Origin: Candidatus Solibacter usitatus
Lineage (GTDB): Bacteria > Acidobacteriota > Terriglobia > Bryobacterales > Bryobacteraceae
Length of the DNA: 34,076 nt
Assembly (NCBI GenBank): GCA_016213245.1
Contig: JACRBC010000080.1
Location: 1 to 34,076 of the forward strand
Direction of reading: 5' to 3'
Shown piece by piece: positions 3,018 to 15,128 of this stretch. The translations under genes and the position numbers were made by a program. The notes under the pieces are model-generated. The model saw nothing but the letters and a program-made list of their open reading frames with translations. It did not search any database and had not been told where the DNA came from. Position 1 is the stretch's first letter. Every line of letters begins with the position of its first letter.

Positions 3018-5702
3018 ATGCGTTTGGCGATCATGCTGGCGACGCTGGCGGCGTGCGCCGCGGCGGCGGACTACCGGCCGCCGGCAGGAACGCGGCCGGC
3101 CGCGCGGCGGCCGGGAGCGGAGAGCGTACTGCCGGGCGGGCGGATGATCGCGCCGCTGGGCAGGCAGTTCACCACCGGGCCCGGAGCATTCGGCCTGGCG
3201 GTGAGTCCTGACGGAAAGCTGGCGGTGACCGCCAACGCCGGCGGGGGCAGATACTCACTTTCCATCCTGGATATGACGGCCGAGCCGTGGCAGGTGAAGA
3301 GCCTGGCGGCGCTGAGGAGGGATGAAAAGGCGGCCAATGAAGAGGAGGACTGGCGCAGCGTCTTCATGGGCCTGGCTTTCTCGGAGGAGCGGCGGCTGTT
3401 CGTATCGGAGGGCAACTCAGGGCGCGTCAGGGACATCACGGTTCCCTCCGGCAAGGTCCACAATCTTTACCACCTGAACCAGGGGCAGTGGCGGGACAGC
3501 TACTCCGGGGACCTGGCCTATGACGCGGCCAAGCAGGTGTTGTACGTGGTGGATCAGACCAACTTCCGGGTGGCGGTCTTCGACGCGAAGAGCCGCAAGC
3601 TGCTGAGTTCTGTTCGAGTGGGGCGGCTGCCGTTCAAGATGGCGCTTTCCCCGGATCGCAACCGGTTGTACGTCACCAACATCGGGATGTTCGAATACCA
3701 GCCGGTGCCGGGCGCCGATGCGAAGAGCCCGCAGGCAACAGGGTTGCCGTTTCCGGCATTCGGGTTCCCATCGCCCGAGGCGGTGAAAGGGGCGCGGCGG
3801 GCGACGGAGATGGGCGAGGTGGACGTGCCGGGGCTGGGCGACCCGAACGTGGAGGAGTCCAATTCGCTGTGTGTGGTGGACGTGTCGACGCCGGGGGCGG
3901 CGCGCGTGGTGAAGTTCGTGCGGACGGGCGAGCCGTTTGGGCCGAACAGTCACGGGGGATCGAGCCCGTCGGGGGTGGCGGCCACTTCGGGCCTCGTTTA
4001 TGTGTCGAACGGCAACCAGGACACGATCACGGTGATCGACGCGGTGACGCTCAACGTGAGGACGCAGATCCCGATTCGCATTCCAGGGCTGGAGAAGTAC
4101 CGGGGCGTGCTGCCGGTAGGCCTGGCGCTGGACGTGCCGAACGGCCGGCTGCTGGTGGCCGAAGCGGGGATGAACGCGGTGGGAGTGATCGACCTGACCA
4201 CCCACAAGCTGGCGGGGCACCTGCCGGCGGGGTGGTTTCCGACGGCGGTTTGGGCGGATCGCGGCCAGATGATCGTGGCGAGCGCCAAGGGGCTTGGCAC
4301 GGGGCCGAACGCGACCCGCACGGCGCCGCTGGAGCGGAGTTTCCAAGCGGAGTTGCGGCAGGGGACGTTGAGCGTGTACGACGCGCCCTTGAACCGCTGG
4401 CTGCCCACCCGCACGGAGCAGGTGATGGCGCTGAACGGTTTCCAGGGGAGGCGGGAGGAGGCGCGGCCGCTGCCCATCGAGTTGCGGCACGTGGTGATCA
4501 TCGTCAAGGAAAACAGGACCTACGACGAGGTTTTCGGCGACATCGATTCGGACTCGACAGGTGAACTGCGCGGGGCTCCGGAGCTGGCGCGCTTCGGGCG
4601 CAGGGGCTGGGTGCAGAACGAGCCGGGGATGCTCAAGGCGCGGTTGGAGAAGAAGTTCTACAACATTACTCCCAACCACCACGAACTGGCGCAGCGGTAC
4701 GCGTTCAGCGACAACTTCTACGCCGACAGCGAAGTGAGCGTGGACGGGCACCATTGGATTGTGGGGTCGTATCCGAACGTGTGGACGGAGAGCTCGCTGA
4801 TGGCGTCCAGCGGCGGGCAGAAGGACTTCCGGTTCCCGACCACGGCGCCGGGCCGGCTGCTGGCGGCGCAAAGCAACTCCAGCGTGCATCCGGAGGAGCA
4901 GCTTGAGGCCGGGGCGCTGTGGCACCACCTGGAGCGGAACGGCATTCCGTTCCGCAACTTCGGGGAGGGTTTCGAGCTGGCGGGAGTGGCGGAAGAGGCG
5001 GGCGAAAAGCCAACGGGCGCGCGCTTCCTGACCAACGTGCCGATGCCTGATCCGCTGTACCGCAACACGTCGCGCGAGTATCCGCAGTACAACATGAACA
5101 TCCCGGACCAGTACAGGGCGGACAAGTTCATCGAGGAGATAGATGCTTTGTACGTCAAGCCGGGGGTGGACCTGCCGCGCCTGATCTTCATCCACCTGCC
5201 GAACGATCACACGACGAAGCCGCGTCCCGCAGACGGCTACCCCTTCGGCGCGTCCTACATGGCGGACAACGACTACGCGCTGGGGCGCATCATGGAGTAC
5301 CTTTCGCGCTCGAAGTGGTGGAGGAGCATGGCCGTGCTGGTGACGGAGGACGACGCGCAGGGCGGAGTGGATCACGTCGATTCGCACCGCACGGTGCTGC
5401 TGGTGGCGAGCCCGTTTGCGCGGCGCAACTACGCCTCGCGGACCAACGCGAGCTTCCCGGCGCTGCTGAAGACCGCCTTCCGCCTGCTGGGCATCCCGCC
5501 GCTGAACCTGTTCGACGCGGCCGCGGCCGATCTGACGGACTGCCTGACGCCGGTACCGGACTTTACGCCGTTCACGGCGATCCGGCCGGATCCGGAGATC
5601 TTCGTGCCGGAGAATGCGCGCGACCCGAAGGATCCGCGGCCGGGGCCGAAGATGGACGACCCGGAGGTGCTGCGCGAGCAGCACAGGCAACAACAGAGAT
5701 AG
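3018..5702 (+). CDS. Secreted YncE-like beta-propeller / alkaline-phosphatase-fold phosphoesterase
   Basis: This is an 894-aa exported two-domain protein. A signal peptide covers about residues 1-20 (MRLAIMLATLAACAAAA). Residues ~50-450 are a beta-propeller of YVTN/YncE type, with repeats such as LAVSPDGKLAV, LYVTNIG and VYVSNGNQDTITVID. Residues ~490-860 are a phosphoesterase related to phospholipase C and acid phosphatases. Its marks are E498-N-R-T-Y-D503 (T501 the likely nucleophile), SVDGHHW, HLPNDHTTKP, ADNDYALG, and TEDDAQGGVDHVDSHR with metal-binding Asp and His. The substrate is unknown. It sits 26 bp after rseP and 8 bp before a ceramidase-like gene, so a role in phospholipid or sphingolipid turnover is possible but only inferred. 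A paralogue is at 27411. Confidence 0.88.
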   Translation: MRLAIMLATLAACAAAADYRPPAGTRPAARRPGAESVLPGGRMIAPLGRQFTTGPGAFGLAVSPDGKLAVTANAGGGRYSLSILDMTAEPWQVKSLAALRRDEKAANEEEDWRSVFMGLAFSEERRLFVSEGNSGRVRDITVPSGKVHNLYHLNQGQWRDSYSGDLAYDAAKQVLYVVDQTNFRVAVFDAKSRKLLSSVRVGRLPFKMALSPDRNRLYVTNIGMFEYQPVPGADAKSPQATGLPFPAFGFPSPEAVKGARRATEMGEVDVPGLGDPNVEESNSLCVVDVSTPGAARVVKFVRTGEPFGPNSHGGSSPSGVAATSGLVYVSNGNQDTITVIDAVTLNVRTQIPIRIPGLEKYRGVLPVGLALDVPNGRLLVAEAGMNAVGVIDLTTHKLAGHLPAGWFPTAVWADRGQMIVASAKGLGTGPNATRTAPLERSFQAELRQGTLSVYDAPLNRWLPTRTEQVMALNGFQGRREEARPLPIELRHVVIIVKENRTYDEVFGDIDSDSTGELRGAPELARFGRRGWVQNEPGMLKARLEKKFYNITPNHHELAQRYAFSDNFYADSEVSVDGHHWIVGSYPNVWTESSLMASSGGQKDFRFPTTAPGRLLAAQSNSSVHPEEQLEAGALWHHLERNGIPFRNFGEGFELAGVAEEAGEKPTGARFLTNVPMPDPLYRNTSREYPQYNMNIPDQYRADKFIEEIDALYVKPGVDLPRLIFIHLPNDHTTKPRPADGYPFGASYMADNDYALGRIMEYLSRSKWWRSMAVLVTEDDAQGGVDHVDSHRTVLLVASPFARRNYASRTNASFPALLKTAFRLLGIPPLNLFDAAAADLTDCLTPVPDFTPFTAIRPDPEIFVPENARDPKDPRPGPKMDDPEVLREQHRQQQR

Positions 5703-5710
5703 GGTAGAGC

Positions 5711-6496
5711 ATGACCTGGCGCGCGGGCGTGCTGCTGATGCTGGCGGTTGCAGCCTCGGTGGCGGCGGCGCTGATGCCGCGCTGGCCGCAGAATCCGGCC
5801 TATCACGCATTTGCGGACCAGCGCCTTTTGCTGGGCGTTCCGCATTTCTGGAATGTCGTCTCCAATGCCGCCTTCACGGGGGCAGGGCTGTTCGGACTGG
5901 TGTTGTGGGGCGGGGCGGACTGGCGGTCGCGGCCGGGCCGGTGGGGCTGGCTGGTGGTTGGGGCGGGGGCGGCGCTCACTGGTATCGGAAGCGCCTACTA
6001 TCATGTTGCGCCGGACAACCAGACGCTTTACTGGGACCGATTGCCCATGGCGGTTCTGTTCATGGGGATCTTCTCGACCGCGATCGGCGAACGGATCAGC
6101 GGGCGGGCCGGCTCGCTCCTGCTGGCGCCGCTGCTGCTGCTTGGGGCGGGCAGCGTGGAGGTGTGGCGGAGGGGCGAGTTGGCGGGCGTAGGGGCGGGGG
6201 ATCTGCGACTTTACGGGCTGGTGCAGTACTACCCGATGATCGCGTTGGCGCTGATGCTGCTGTTCTATCAGGCGCGGTACGGGGGAGGGTGGCGCTGGTG
6301 GACGATGCTGGCTCTCTACGCGGGCGCGAAAGTGGCGGAGCTTTGCGACGCGCCGGTGTACGGCGTGACGGGAGGGCTGCTGAGCGGGCACGTGCTGAAG
6401 CACGTGCTTGGCGGCGCGGCGCTGGTGGTGCTGTTTGGGCGCCTGCGGTCATCGCGACAGAATCGAACCGCAGCACTCAGCGCGCCAGCGGGTTGA
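5711..6496 (+). CDS. Ceramidase-like integral membrane hydrolase (CREST superfamily)
   Basis: This 261-aa protein has about seven membrane segments and matches the alkaline ceramidase/CREST family of zinc-dependent amide hydrolases. FWNVVSN (46-52) matches the FWNTVSN motif of human ACER3. S94, H98, D109, H227 and H231 have exactly the spacing of the ACER3 active-site residues (S-x3-H-x10-D and H-x3-H). ACER3 has a glutamate calcium ligand just before FWN; here it is a histidine (H45), so the calcium site probably differs. It may cleave ceramide-like or other N-acyl lipids, but the substrate is not shown. It follows the phosphoesterase gene by 8 bp. Its last 20 bp overlap the 3' end of the convergent vapC. 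Confidence 0.82.
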   Translation: MTWRAGVLLMLAVAASVAAALMPRWPQNPAYHAFADQRLLLGVPHFWNVVSNAAFTGAGLFGLVLWGGADWRSRPGRWGWLVVGAGAALTGIGSAYYHVAPDNQTLYWDRLPMAVLFMGIFSTAIGERISGRAGSLLLAPLLLLGAGSVEVWRRGELAGVGAGDLRLYGLVQYYPMIALALMLLFYQARYGGGWRWWTMLALYAGAKVAELCDAPVYGVTGGLLSGHVLKHVLGGAALVVLFGRLRSSRQNRTAALSAPAG

Positions 6497-6905
6497 TCCA
6501 CTTCAGACCGGGAAAGCGCGAGAAATCGGCGTCAGCGGAGCAGAGCGTCAAGCCGTGCTCCATGGCGAGGGCGGCGAGGTGGCAATCCGGGATCAGATTG
6601 GCGCTGGTTGCGTGAGGCAGGAGGGCGGTGAAGATTCGGCGGTGATCCTCGCCCGGGGCAGGGATCCAGACGTTGGGGCAATCGAGCCATTCTTCTACCT
6701 GGCGCCACGCGGAATGGAGTGAGTCCGGCCGCTCGAAGACGCGCGGATTGGTAGTGAGGCGCAAGAAGGCCAGCAGACTGGCCCAGGGGAGTGCGACGAG
6801 GGCCGGACCGTGCAGGGCTTCCTCAAGCCAGCGCCTAGCGGCGACATGCATCGGCATTGAGGTAGAGCGCGAGTAGATCAGGAGGTTGGCGTCGACGAGG
6901 ATCAC
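6477..6905 (-). CDS. vapC: PIN-domain toxin, VapC family
   Basis: This is a 142-aa single PIN domain, a Mg-dependent ribonuclease fold whose members usually cut tRNA or rRNA to arrest growth. D5 (ILVDANLLIY), D107 (IPDCHLAALA), D125 and D127 (SADADFSRFPGL) supply the acidic cluster. The ending FPGLKWINPL is typical of the Mtu_PIN subfamily. The mid-domain glutamate of many PIN toxins is not obvious; the corresponding stretch reads LPWASLLAFLRL. It starts with GTG, which overlaps the antitoxin stop in a GTGA, so translation is coupled. Its 3' end overlaps the ceramidase-like gene by 20 bp. Confidence 0.9.
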   Translation of the reverse strand: MILVDANLLIYSRSTSMPMHVAARRWLEEALHGPALVALPWASLLAFLRLTTNPRVFERPDSLHSAWRQVEEWLDCPNVWIPAPGEDHRRIFTALLPHATSANLIPDCHLAALAMEHGLTLCSADADFSRFPGLKWINPLAR

Positions 6906-7150
6906 TTGAACTGCTCGCCTTCGGCCAGCGCTAGCGCCTCCGCGATGTTGTCGAGGTTGTTGAGGTAGCAGCGTCCGAGTGAGACGGGCCGCGTCCGGGT
7001 GCGGGCGCTCTTTGCCGCTGGCCTGGAGAGTTGCTTGAGACCTTCTCGCAGGGCCGTATTGACGGCGTCCTTCATGCTGGTCTTTCGCCGCTGGCGCAAC
7101 CTGTCGAGAAGCACTGCCACATCATCGTCAATGGTCAACGTGGTTCTCAT
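6902..7150 (-). CDS. vapB: Ribbon-helix-helix antitoxin, VapB type
   Basis: This 82-aa protein begins MRTTLTIDDDVAVLLDRL, a classic ribbon-helix-helix start: a DNA-binding beta strand, then an amphipathic helix. A Lys/Arg-rich linker is followed by a C-terminal tail (NNLDNIAEALALAEGE) that would wrap and inhibit the toxin. It is translated just ahead of vapC with a 4-bp overlap. A perfect inverted repeat 6 bp upstream of its start (7157-7175) is the likely binding site through which the pair represses itself. The family assignment comes from fold and context, because antitoxin sequences vary widely. Confidence 0.85.
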   Translation of the reverse strand: MRTTLTIDDDVAVLLDRLRQRRKTSMKDAVNTALREGLKQLSRPAAKSARTRTRPVSLGRCYLNNLDNIAEALALAEGEQFK

Positions 7151-7156
7151 ACATCA

Positions 7157-7175
7157 CATCATCGCATAGATGATG
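7157..7175. promoter_or_regulatory. Inverted repeat, probable VapB operator
   Basis: CATCATC (7157-7163) and GATGATG (7169-7175) are a perfect 7-bp inverted repeat with spacer GCATA. The site begins 6 bp upstream of the vapB start codon. Its position suits binding by the dimeric ribbon-helix-helix antitoxin, which commonly represses its own operon. Confidence 0.6.
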
Positions 7176-7226
7176 CCGTGATGCCTATATCGTAGCGCGT
7201 CGTCACTGCTTCGGCGGAAGGGAGCT

Positions 7227-7235
7227 TGCTAGACT
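7227..7235 (+). promoter_or_regulatory. Extended -10 element, possible leaderless start
   Basis: TGCTAGACT fits the extended -10 pattern TGnTAnnnT. Its last base is six bases from the ATG at 7242, so the transcript could start at or beside the initiation codon. No ribosome site precedes that ATG. The -35 region (about 7207-7212, TGCTTC) is weak. Confidence 0.35.
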
Positions 7236-7241
7236 GCCTCC

Positions 7242-7931
7242 ATGACGCAGGGTCCGAGGCGCAATGTTCCGCAGGGGGAGGGCGCACCTTCCGCGCCGGC
7301 CAGGATGCCGCCCGACGTGCCGGCGGATACAGGGGTGCTGGGGTGGGTGGTCATCGCGCCCGAGACGGTAGGCCTGATCCTGGAGGATTGCCGGGCGGGG
7401 GCGGTGTCGCTGGCCGGGAAGAATCTGGACGAGTTCAGAGCGACGGGAGCGGTGCTGGAGGGCGTCTCGCTGGCCGGGGTGGTGGCGCGCTCGGCGCGCT
7501 GGCGGGATGTGCGTTTTGTGAAGTGCGACCTGTCCAACGCCGTACTGCGCGGGGTGGAGGCGAGGCGCGTGGAGATGGTGGAGTGCAGAATGCTGGGGAT
7601 GAAGGCCGTGGAATGCCGCTGGGAAGAGGTGCTTGTTGCGGGGTGCGATGCGCGCTACGCGCAGTTTCGCGACGGGGCTCTGCGAAGGTGCGAGTTCAGG
7701 GACAACCGCATGGAGGAGAGTGATTTTGCGGGTGCGGACCTGTCGAACACAGCGTTTGCGGGATGCGCTCTGCAACGAGCGGACCTGACGGGGGCAAAGC
7801 TTGCAGGTGCAGATCTCCGCGGCGCGGACCTGGAGGGCATCCTGGTGCGGCCGGAAGACGTGCGGGGGGCGACGGTCAGCGCTGCACAGGCGATGGAGCT
7901 GGCGCGGCTGCTGGGTCTGAAGATCGGCTGA
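7242..7931 (+). CDS. Pentapeptide-repeat protein
   Basis: This is a 229-aa protein with A(D/N)LxX-type repeats, clearest at about residues 160-210 (AGADLSNTAFAGCALQRADLTGAKLAGADLRGADLEG) and more degenerate from about residue 55. Such repeats build a right-handed quadrilateral beta-helix. Some members mimic DNA and protect gyrase (Qnr, MfpA), but most have no known role and nothing here points to one. The first 35 residues are Pro-rich and probably flexible; there is no signal peptide. The start lacks a ribosome site and follows an extended -10, so it may be leaderless. Its last 56 bp overlap the convergent propeller gene. No partner gene is evident. Confidence 0.85.
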   Translation: MTQGPRRNVPQGEGAPSAPARMPPDVPADTGVLGWVVIAPETVGLILEDCRAGAVSLAGKNLDEFRATGAVLEGVSLAGVVARSARWRDVRFVKCDLSNAVLRGVEARRVEMVECRMLGMKAVECRWEEVLVAGCDARYAQFRDGALRRCEFRDNRMEESDFAGADLSNTAFAGCALQRADLTGAKLAGADLRGADLEGILVRPEDVRGATVSAAQAMELARLLGLKIG

Positions 7932-12635: not shown

Positions 12636-13883
12636 ATGGCGGAAAACCTGCTCTACCTCACCGAACTGCTCGGGCTGAAGGTCTATGATCTGAAGCGCCG
12701 AGTATTGGGACGGGTGCGCGATGCCGCGCTTCTGCCCCTGGTCCACCCTGTGCGGGTGGACTGTTTCCTGATGGGCGGACGCGGGTACGCCTGGATCGCC
12801 ATCCGGCACGACCAGATCCGGTCGATCTCCCTGGACGGGATCTTCCTCAAAGACGAGCAGTTGACGCCGTACCACGCGGATGAATATGTACTCCGGCTGG
12901 TGCGCGACTTACTGGACCAGCAGATCATTGACGCGCGCGGGCGCAAGGTGGTGCGTGTCACCGACGTCACCTTCGGCATCAGGCGGGAGGAGGATCGCGA
13001 CACGCTGCACGTGCTGGAAGTGGACATCGGGATGAGGAGCATGTTCCGGCGGCTGGTGCAAGGCGCCATTCCGCGCCGCATGGTGCGCCGCCTGCAGCGC
13101 AGGATCCCGCCGAACTCCATCAGCTGGGATCTCTGCAACATCGTCGAGCCGGATCCGCAGCGCCGCCTGCGGCTGAATATCTCCATGGCGCCTCTGGAGA
13201 AGATGCACCCGGCGGACCTGGCCGACATTGTGGAAGAGCTGAGCCCGGAGGACCGCGAGGCGATCTTCGAGGCTATCGATACGGAAACCGCCGCCGAGGC
13301 GCTGTCGGAGATGGAGCCGGAGATCCAGGCTCAGATCATCGAGTCGCTGGAGACCGAGAAAGCGGCCGACATTCTGGAAGAGATGGATCCGGACGAAGCG
13401 GCCGACGTGCTGGGCGATCTGGAAGAAGCCACGTCGGAGGAGATTCTGGAGGAGATGGAGGACGAGCCGAAGGCGGATGTCGAGGAACTGCTGGAGTACG
13501 ACGACGATACGGCCGGCGGGCTGATGAACACGGAGTTTATCGCCGTGCATGAAGATGGGACGGCGGCCGACGCGCTGGAGGCCCTGCACCTGAATCAGGA
13601 CCTGGCCGACACGCTGAATACCATTTTCGTGACGGACATCGACCACCGGCTGCGGGGCGCCCTGCCGGTGGCGCGCGTGTTTCTGGCGCGCCCGCAGGCC
13701 AAGCTGAAGGACCTGCTGCAGGACGAAGTGGTGATTCAGGCGGGTGTGGAGGAGAAGGCAGACCGCGTGGTGGAACTGTTCGACAAGTACAACGTGATGA
13801 CGCTTCCGGTGGTGGACGAAGAGGGCCGGCTGGCGGGCGTGGTGACGGCCGACGACATCATCTCGCTCCTGAGGAAGCGTTAG
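12636..13883 (+). CDS. Soluble PRC-barrel / MgtE-N / CBS-pair protein, probable Mg sensor for the adjoining transporter
   Basis: This 415-aa protein has no membrane spans. Residues ~1-75 and ~85-165 resemble two PRC-barrel units (LLGLKVYDLKRRVLGRVRD and LLDQQIIDARGRKVVRVTDV). Residues ~183-290 are an MgtE N-domain with its acidic helical repeats (LEKMHPADLADIVEELSPEDREAIFEAI, then EKAADILEEMDPDEAADVLGDL). Residues ~290-415 are a CBS pair beginning YDDDTAGGLMN. In MgtE channels these two domains bind Mg and close the pore; the pore domain is absent here. The stop codon is immediately followed by the ATG of an NRAMP-like transporter, so the protein probably regulates it in trans. I chose ATG 12636, with GGAGGC 11 bp upstream. 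A TTG at 12576 is less likely. Confidence 0.85.
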   Translation: MAENLLYLTELLGLKVYDLKRRVLGRVRDAALLPLVHPVRVDCFLMGGRGYAWIAIRHDQIRSISLDGIFLKDEQLTPYHADEYVLRLVRDLLDQQIIDARGRKVVRVTDVTFGIRREEDRDTLHVLEVDIGMRSMFRRLVQGAIPRRMVRRLQRRIPPNSISWDLCNIVEPDPQRRLRLNISMAPLEKMHPADLADIVEELSPEDREAIFEAIDTETAAEALSEMEPEIQAQIIESLETEKAADILEEMDPDEAADVLGDLEEATSEEILEEMEDEPKADVEELLEYDDDTAGGLMNTEFIAVHEDGTAADALEALHLNQDLADTLNTIFVTDIDHRLRGALPVARVFLARPQAKLKDLLQDEVVIQAGVEEKADRVVELFDKYNVMTLPVVDEEGRLAGVVTADDIISLLRKR

Positions 13884-15128
13884 ATGCTGAAGCGCCTCAA
13901 ATACCACATTCTGGTCTTCTTCTCCGTCATCGGGCCGGGCTTCATCACGGCCATGGTGGACAACGACGCCGGCGGTATCTTCACCTACTCACAGGCGGGG
14001 GCGAAGTACGGTTACCTGCCGCTGTGGACGCTGGCGCCGATCACCGTGCTGCTGGTGGTGACCCAGGAGATGTGTTCACGCATGGGCGCGGTGACAGGCA
14101 AGGGCTTGTCGGACCTCATCCGGGAGGAGTTCGGCCTGCGGACGACGTTCTTCATGATGGCGGCGCTGGTGGCCGCCAACCTGACCAACGTCATGGCGAA
14201 CTTCGCCGGCATCGCGGAAGCGCTGGAGTTGTTCCACGTCAGCCGCTATATTTCAGTGCCGCTGGCCGCGGCGGGCGTCTGGTTTCTGATTGTCAAGGGA
14301 ACCTACGAGCGCGTGGAGAAGGTCTTCCTGTTCGCCACATCGCTCTACATCTGCTATATCATCTCCGGCGTATTGGTCAAGCCCGACTGGAAGGAGGCGG
14401 CCCTCTACAGCGTCAAGCCCGTGCTGCTGCTGGAACCGGGCTACCTGACGCTGCTGATCGGCATGGTGGGCACTTCGGTGGCGCCCTGGATGCAGTTCTA
14501 TCTGCAGGCGGCGGTGGTGGAGAAAGGAATCGGCGCCAAGGACTACGCGGAGAGCCGCGTGGAGGTGGTGGTGGGATGCATCGCCATGTCGGTGATCGCC
14601 TTCTTCATCATCGTCGCCTGCGCGGGCGCCATCCATTCCGTGAAGCCGCAGGACATCGACAGCGCCACTGACGCCGCGCTCGGCCTCAAGCCGTTCGGGC
14701 AGTACGCCTTCCTGCTGTTCTGCGCGGGCCTGTTCAACGCCTCGCTGTTCGCCGCCTGCATTCTGCCGCTGTCGACCGCCTACACCGTGTGCGAGGGGCT
14801 GGGCTTTGAGTCCGGCGTGAACCGGCGCTTCGGGGAGGCTCCGATCTTCTATTCGCTGTTCGCGCTGCTGATCGTGCTGGGCGGAGGCGCGGTGCTGCTG
14901 CCCGGCTTTCCGCTGGTGAAGATGATTCTCCTCAGCCAGGTCATCAATGGCGCCCTGCTGCCGTTCGTGCTGATCTTCATGATGCTGCTGATCAACAAAG
15001 AGCGGCTCATGAAGAAATGGAAGAACAACGGCTTCTACAACGCGACCGGCTGGATCAGCGTGGTAGTGATGATCGGCCTGACACTGGCGCTGGTCGCCAT
15101 CACGGTGCGCGACCTGTACGCCGGCTAA
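13884..15128 (+). CDS. NRAMP-family transporter with altered metal site, possible Mg transporter
   Basis: This is a 414-aa polytopic protein of about eleven spans, clearly NRAMP (SLC11) in its GPGF start and QAGAxYGY motif. Aligned without gaps to E. coli MntH, the span-1 DPGN metal motif reads DAGG (D28-A29-G30-G31). The span-6 MPH reads APW (A200-P201-W202). The Asn and Met that bind Mn and Fe are therefore both lost while the Asp is kept. Loss of these ligands is consistent with the NRAMP-related magnesium transporter (NRMT) branch. The gene starts directly after the stop of the MgtE-N/CBS protein, with no spacer, which supports magnesium as cargo. The transported ion is inferred. Confidence 0.85.
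   Translation: MLKRLKYHILVFFSVIGPGFITAMVDNDAGGIFTYSQAGAKYGYLPLWTLAPITVLLVVTQEMCSRMGAVTGKGLSDLIREEFGLRTTFFMMAALVAANLTNVMANFAGIAEALELFHVSRYISVPLAAAGVWFLIVKGTYERVEKVFLFATSLYICYIISGVLVKPDWKEAALYSVKPVLLLEPGYLTLLIGMVGTSVAPWMQFYLQAAVVEKGIGAKDYAESRVEVVVGCIAMSVIAFFIIVACAGAIHSVKPQDIDSATDAALGLKPFGQYAFLLFCAGLFNASLFAACILPLSTAYTVCEGLGFESGVNRRFGEAPIFYSLFALLIVLGGGAVLLPGFPLVKMILLSQVINGALLPFVLIFMMLLINKERLMKKWKNNGFYNATGWISVVVMIGLTLALVAITVRDLYAG

Follow-up and report, generated by a model that had tools for sequence, protein, structure and literature searches.

Two adjacent genes on the forward strand of the DNA stretch analyzed here (the window: all 34,076 nucleotides of the stretch, on contig JACRBC010000080.1 of the soil bacterium Candidatus Solibacter usitatus, Acidobacteriota) encode a soluble protein made of the Mg-sensing parts of the MgtE channel, called the sensor below (12636 to 13883, 415 amino acids), and a membrane carrier related to NRAMP (13884 to 15128, 414 amino acids). 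We found that carriers of this type, the NRAMP-related Mg transporters (NRMT), and the sensor are near-inseparable partners. We think it rather probable that the two genes form one Mg2+ uptake unit, in which the Mg-gating module of MgtE has been reused as a separate inhibitory subunit. The window pair is real and conserved, and it is a new member of a kind of gene pair that had been described before. In the work of Shin et al. (2014), most nrmT genes had an MgtE-N gene as a neighbor. Those authors assayed one such pair, Acp2976/2977 of Acidobacterium capsulatum, raised feedback regulation as a speculation and did not settle what the partner does (PMC4072509). Their pairs, as given in the available text for the Clostridium acetobutylicum Ca_c0685 operon and for Acp2976/Acp2977, are the identical two-gene unit, and in A. 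capsulatum, which belongs to the phylum of the window, the MgtE-N-like gene also lies directly upstream of nrmT. An earlier note on this DNA had known of no described MgtE-N/CBS regulator with an NRAMP-type carrier; its reading of the carrier as an NRMT relative and of the sensor as its regular partner held, but the pair was not undescribed. The available text of Shin et al. makes no mention of the CBS pair, the PRC units or the Mg-site pattern of the partner, and no later study of it was found in the open-licence literature, including the available portions of PMC13060092 and PMC13209247. As far as the literature searched shows, the new findings are that the two proteins are near-obligate partners, that MgtE is largely excluded where NRMT is present, that the Mg sites lost are selectively those coupled to the pore, and that the model predicts a face for docking.

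The partnership was surveyed in 197 Acidobacteriota genomes with a requested completeness of at least 90% (the genome of the window itself is 79% complete). NRMT genes were called at a score of at least 511 bits against an alignment model (A3; the next match had 403 bits), and sensors at 347 bits or higher along the whole length of a second model (A4; the next match, at 233 bits, covered positions 187 to 414 only, the MgtE part). Some of the surveyed genomes had gone into building both models, and among the MgtE matches there could be a sensor too diverged to be recognized. With these calls, NRMT and the full-length sensor occupied an identical set of genomes: the sensor was found in 61/61 genomes with NRMT and in 0/136 of the others. 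The genes were adjacent in 33 of the 61 (sensor upstream in 22, downstream in 11); 13 pairs were 0.7 to 5.6 kb apart on one strand, 1 pair was 199 kb apart, and 14 were on different contigs, whose ends placed them at least 9 kb apart (at least 21 kb in 12 of the 14). Because 15 pairs are thus unlinked, the co-occurrence is not mere linkage. A second phylum was sampled around a metagenome-assembled genome titled Myxococcales, comprising 156 genomes without completeness or kinship data; NRMT was present in 16 of them, each with the sensor adjacent upstream (16/16). Of 80 loci taken from contigs of GTDB genomes, 12 showed no sensor in the stretch; the other 68 did, and in two of these it was partial or split. 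Canonical NRAMP loci had no sensor in 32/34 stretches, mostly extending about 1.5 kb on each side, and the other two (genomes G105 and G161) adjoin an NRMT gene and its sensor. Three NRMT-like genes missed the cut-off, at 395 to 403 bits, and the genomes that carry them had been counted for NRMT anyway; two of these genes, with a DNDAGA motif, were inspected and had no sensor in the stretch. Long NRAMP frames of 947 and 1147 amino acids in two genomes were considered as sensor-carrier fusions, a reading dropped because separate sensor frames were present.

The MgtE channel showed the opposite distribution. Its pore was found in 5/61 genomes with NRMT and in 104/136 without (p = 3e-20). Seven genomes whose sole PF01769 match was weak and in a short frame (about 350 to 440 amino acids) were not counted as having MgtE; counting the weak short-frame matches gave 11/61 versus 105/136. 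Because relatedness inflates p values, the comparison was also made inside families: within six mixed families, MgtE occurred in 2/23 genomes with NRMT and 18/20 without. The pair therefore seems to replace the MgtE channel. CorA had no association with NRMT (37/61 versus 83/136). MgtE and CorA are both missing from 28 genomes, of which 22 have NRMT, the genome of the window included; weak partial CorA matches in G146, G170, G185 and G171 were left uncounted, and counting that of G171 gives 21/27. Neither MgtE nor CorA was matched in the window's genome, at its completeness of 79%.

The sensor gene ends in a TAG (13881 to 13883), which the carrier ATG at 13884 follows with zero gap, as the earlier note had described; the coordinates, domains and motifs that it gave agree with the open reading frames, Pfam and the sequence. 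The sensor start is shared with relatives (for example, MAENLLYLTEL in L090), and a GAGG at 13871 to 13874, within the sensor gene and 9 nucleotides before the carrier ATG, may act in ribosome binding. Pfam detected a PRC domain at sensor residues 4 to 29 (PF05239, 25.1 bits; cut-off, 21.2), MgtE_N at residues 190 to 291 (PF03448, E = 1e-28; 13203 to 13508) and two CBS stretches ending at residue 413 (13527 to 13874), with no match to the transmembrane pore PF01769. The protein is thus separate and soluble, as had been proposed, with the MgtE_N domain and CBS pair of an MgtE channel and without its pore and plug helix. In a search of solved structures, residues 186 to 413 matched the cytosolic domain of Thermus thermophilus MgtE (TtMgtE; E = 8.7e-34), and the sensor fold gave a template modeling (TM) score of 0.81 by target length against 2yvy, the Mg-bound form of that domain. 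PRC-barrel-like units had been proposed, and two were placed in the N-terminal part. The first (residues ~4 to 71, 12645 to 12848) has the Pfam match and beta strands in the fold model; the second (residues ~88 to 140, 12897 to 13055) has no Pfam match and is suggested by model strands at 96 to 130 and by conserved residues.

Next, 118 distinct sensors were compared with the published Mg sites of TtMgtE (PMC5882242), residue by residue, and seven MgtE channels of Acidobacteriota served as a control. The window sensor has D253 and D407 at Mg4 (D in 78/118 and 87/118 sensors, respectively), D257 at Mg6 (D in 113/118) and E221 at Mg7 (E or D in 105/118). At Mg5, which in MgtE joins the CBS domains to the plug helix (PMC5882242), the ligands are lost: the window sensor has N386 (N in 103/118) and S410, whereas the channel controls keep D in 6/7 and 7/7. 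The chain stops five residues past the D250 column, and 91/118 sensors stop five or six past it, so that the plug residues E258 and D259 (Mg2 and Mg3) are absent from the window sensor and from these 91; the 22/118 sensors extending 9 to 16 residues past the column were left out of this statement. On this mapping, the sensor keeps most of the ligands by which the N domain is drawn to the CBS pair and has lost those that couple to the pore; some sensors lack the ligands of Mg4 or Mg7. Compared with T. thermophilus MgtE (2yvx/2zy9), the sensor shares the N domain and CBS pair at about 32% identity and the acidic ligands of Mg4, Mg6 and Mg7; it lacks the pore, plug helix, Mg5 ligands and ATP-site residues, and it has the extra N-terminal PRC-type units. 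The ATP-site residues, taken from PMC5529423, are replaced in the window sensor (F227 to V, R187 to A and D188 to R). Nothing was concluded on ATP sensing by the CBS pair, because F227 is also missing from 7/7 of the MgtE channels of Acidobacteriota. Five residues, D99, V108, D110, R138 and W164, are invariant in 118/118 sensors; they sit in the second PRC-like unit and beyond, outside the part that aligns with MgtE.

The carrier matched PF01566 (E = 1.9e-89), scoring below the NCBIfam cut-off for MntH (98 versus 430 bits) and above that for the broad Nramp_1 family (58.8 versus 50). The Pfam scores of the sensor and of the carrier are far beyond what chance would give. Its nearest solved structure was EleNRMT of Eggerthella lenta (7qia, E = 4.9e-105, 355 bits), whereas the best canonical NRAMP reached 76 bits; against 7qia and 7qji, the TM score was 0.91 to 0.92 by target length, with 43 to 44% identity. 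The NRMT signature consists of DxxG in transmembrane helix 1 (TM1) and TxxA/T in TM6 (PMC8806188), and the window carrier matches it exactly with D28AGG31 (13965 to 13976) and T197SVA200, the latter within the TM6 motif running to P and W202 (14472 to 14489). The canonical motifs DPGN and MPH are absent, replaced by DAGG (D28 to G31) and APW (A200 to W202), as the earlier note had stated. W202 stands at the position of the first proton-path histidine of TM6, where EleNRMT also has W. We take L207, by its spacing, to stand at the position of the second such histidine, where EleNRMT has N. In a quick tree of 64 rows with several long branches, the carrier grouped with EleNRMT and other NRMTs (support of 91 for the EleNRMT group), and eight canonical NRAMPs fell on their own side of a branch with a support of 99, which places the carrier outside the canonical Mn/Fe clade. 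Structure match, signature and tree agree, and by these comparisons the carrier is an NRMT, an NRAMP relative but not a canonical Mn/Fe NRAMP. It had also been proposed that the Mn/Fe ligands were lost. The changes of N to G and of M to A are real, but wholesale loss is an overstatement because the metal-binding D28 is kept and because EleNRMT, with both changes, transports Mg as well as Mn (PMC8806188). The carrier probably transports magnesium. One difference is that EleNRMT is described alone, with no mention of a regulatory subunit in the available text (PMC8806188).

We then asked AlphaFold for the complex, with the sensor and carrier run as one read-through chain and one job per alignment. 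With 22 paired and 68 unpaired rows, the mean predicted local distance difference test score (pLDDT) was 88.1 and the predicted TM score (pTM) was 0.78; with 4 paired and 59 unpaired rows, the values were 88.2 and 0.57. The latter run, with its four paired anchor rows (A7), served as the control, since in a fully unpaired alignment (A6) sensor sequences were aligned to the carrier half, and that alignment was dropped before folding. By our own rough estimate, two unplaced halves of such size give a pTM of about 0.5. Therefore, the placement seems to be due to the paired rows, being obtained with 22 of them and not with 4, and the sensor seems to sit on the carrier in the model. The gains in pLDDT with paired rows were largest in sensor residues 171 to 190 (+27 and +21) and carrier residues 205 to 214 (+17), followed by sensor residues 91 to 110 (+12 and +11) and 161 to 170 (+10), with drops of up to 9 elsewhere. 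Sensor segment 161 to 190 (13116 to 13205), which includes the invariant W164, is thus a candidate docking segment, and carrier residues 205 to 214 (FYLQAAVVEK, inner TM6, 14496 to 14525), with Q208 and K214 invariant in 18/18 aligned NRMTs, are a candidate docking face. The run with 22 paired rows also had the deeper alignment (91 rows versus 64), confidence may be raised simply by rows that span both halves, and the model was judged on pTM and pLDDT, without coordinates or an inter-domain error map.

That last point would leave room for the two proteins to be genomic partners without contact, the sensor acting on another Mg-related target. Other clients may exist: in the second phylum, a prediction set beforehand had two halves, of which one, that every NRMT genome would have the sensor, held (16/16), and the other, that no sensor would occur without NRMT, was broken by 2/140 genomes. 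In both, the sensor gene overlaps by one base the gene of a 221-amino-acid PAP2-family membrane protein (minus strand; sensor at 5953 to 7245 and PAP2 at 5291 to 5950 in L239, 6113 to 7405 and 5451 to 6110 in L240), which is a possible second client. Therefore, the carrier implies the sensor, whereas the reverse does not hold without exception. We nevertheless regard partnership without contact as very improbable, given the co-occurrence in both phyla, the unlinked acidobacterial pairs among them, and a model placement that depends on paired rows.

The limits of the model and the two sensors without a carrier weigh against the reading of the pair as one Mg2+ uptake unit, as do the following observations. 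In the A. capsulatum test, the carrier restored a Mn-transport mutant completely, a Mg-transport mutant was rescued only when Mg was at low millimolar levels, and the Mg rescue did not improve when the MgtE-like gene was expressed as well (PMC4072509). Mg as the main substrate is questioned because of this one acidobacterial rescue test, and gating in trans is still unproven because the sensor gave no further gain in it. The transporter survey was confined to MgtE, CorA and canonical NRAMP. An M-box, the Mg riboswitch, was sought with Rfam: none was matched in the window, nor in 17 + 8 = 25 further acidobacterial loci (L075 has about 200 bases upstream). A relative of the carrier outside the phylum, at 57% identity on a Myxococcales-titled contig, is closer than a pair that does have an M-box (see below). 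Among eight plasmid records opened out of 88 matched, the Paraburkholderia and Acidiphilium NRMT-type genes (2/8) had no sensor within 3.5 kb, and the Citrobacter and Cellulomonas pairs adjoin ArsR and heavy-metal P-type ATPase genes. We lowered our confidence in the Mg2+ uptake unit very slightly, leaving it rather probable, for two reasons: outside the phylum there is a closer relative than the M-box pair, and the riboswitch search in the second phylum had too little upstream sequence. No M-box was found in eight NRMT loci there, which says little, as the 4.2-kb stretches hold about 200 bases before the sensor.

The A. capsulatum test also bears on whether the sensor is an assembly factor or Mg-dependent scaffold for the folding or stability of NRMT, with structural Mg sites. 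A stability requirement would likewise yield near-absolute co-occurrence of unlinked pairs, and the invariant sensor residues are mostly in the PRC part. However, NrmT of A. capsulatum and of C. acetobutylicum was active in Bacillus subtilis without the partner (PMC4072509), and EleNRMT was purified and studied as a single protein (PMC8806188). An assembly role is therefore improbable in our view.

On plasmids, the M-box was found at some pairs. In Alicyclobacillus fastidiosus (Bacillota), an M-box (145 bits) lies just upstream of the sensor gene, and the carrier (48% identity) is sister to an acidobacterial NRMT with a support of 100, inside the larger clade of the window. M-boxes also lie upstream of the Arthrobacter and Mycolicibacterium pairs, and none was found at the Citrobacter, Cellulomonas and Rhodococcus pairs. 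With no Rfam match, the window pair falls outside the Mg-specific, M-box-bearing NRMT subset of Shin et al. (2014), and in the available text the A. capsulatum pair likewise has no M-box (PMC4072509).

These results bear on whether the pair is mainly a Mn system, with NRMT importing Mn2+ and the sensor reading Mn2+ or the total divalent load. The full rescue of the Mn-import mutant by A. capsulatum NrmT, with Mg rescue at low millimolar levels only, speaks for it, as do Mn transport by EleNRMT and the failure to find an M-box at the acidobacterial pairs searched. On the other hand, a canonical NRAMP is separately present in the window's genome and in 33/61 NRMT genomes in all (PF01566, above 353 bits), and NRMT as a Mn importer is therefore weakened. 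The mutual exclusion of NRMT and MgtE, the 22 NRMT genomes with neither MgtE nor CorA, the Bacillota pair nested in the window's clade under a Mg riboswitch and the several Mg-site ligands retained in the sensor also argue against it, and we consider a mainly Mn-directed system unlikely.

For the Mg2+ uptake unit, we infer the following mechanism. The NRMT carrier would admit hydrated Mg2+ (and Mn2+) without proton coupling. The sensor would be a dissociable regulatory subunit, the Mg-sensing module of MgtE severed from its pore and joined to PRC units, which would dock it on the cytosolic face of NRMT near inner TM6. At high cytosolic Mg2+, the ion would bridge the N and CBS domains (Mg4, Mg6 and Mg7), the module would close and the carrier would be held shut; at low Mg2+, the module would loosen and uptake would run. 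In these bacteria, the unit would stand in for the MgtE channel. Mg as the physiological substrate and the sign of gating belong to this proposal, and docking is a prediction of the model. The results add new evidence for regulation in trans by a separate subunit. What the MgtE-like gene next to nrmT does, left open in 2014, can now be put as a concrete question, namely, whether NRMT is closed at high cytosolic Mg2+; its concreteness rests on the co-occurrence in two phyla, the exclusion of MgtE, the kept Mg ligands and the predicted docking face. If the proposal is true, the gating module of a Mg channel has been reused to act in trans on a differently folded carrier, which would be a clear example of regulation by modules in ion transport. 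More tentatively, and with rather less confidence, the sensor may be an obligate, portable Mg2+-sensing subunit, the gating half of a Mg2+ channel that moved as a protein of its own onto an unrelated LeuT-fold carrier, docks via PRC at inner TM6 and in a few lineages has a PAP2 client. In that case, membrane proteins of three unrelated folds would share a single type of cytosolic Mg sensor.

Several further genes were seen in the surveys. On the Citrobacter freundii and Cellulomonas plasmids (L224 and L225), the ArsR-type regulator and heavy-metal P-type ATPase genes are on the strand opposite to the pair, and these like neighbors suggest a mobile metal cassette. A second sub-clade of NRMT in Acidobacteriota (L217 to L221, L077 and L078), with DNDAGG and either TTITPWQIFFQQ or TTIAPWMIFFQQ, has the sensor downstream of the carrier. 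An NRAMP-like clade with DDDPSG in TM1 and TTISPYLFFW in TM6 (L065, L072, L196, L200 and L201) had a sensor in 0/5 stretches, and a GPGT clade (2 loci) had none in its stretches. NRMT-like genes with DNDAGA in TM1 at L241 (5331 to 6740, minus strand), L242 (5236 to 6540, minus strand) and L230 had no sensor in the fetched stretch; the DNDAGA genes of Cellulomonas and Arthrobacter have one adjoining. A contig from a viral collection (IMGVR_UViG_3300027896_002037, L222) carries a type II NRMT gene at 5001 to 6293, with no sensor found in 11 kb; possibly this is DNA of a host that was binned as viral. In the window's genome, the canonical NRAMP (L001, 859 to 2700, minus strand) is an unusually long frame of 614 amino acids with a C-terminal extension of about 200 amino acids, and several other acidobacterial canonical NRAMP frames are similarly long (about 620 to 660 amino acids).

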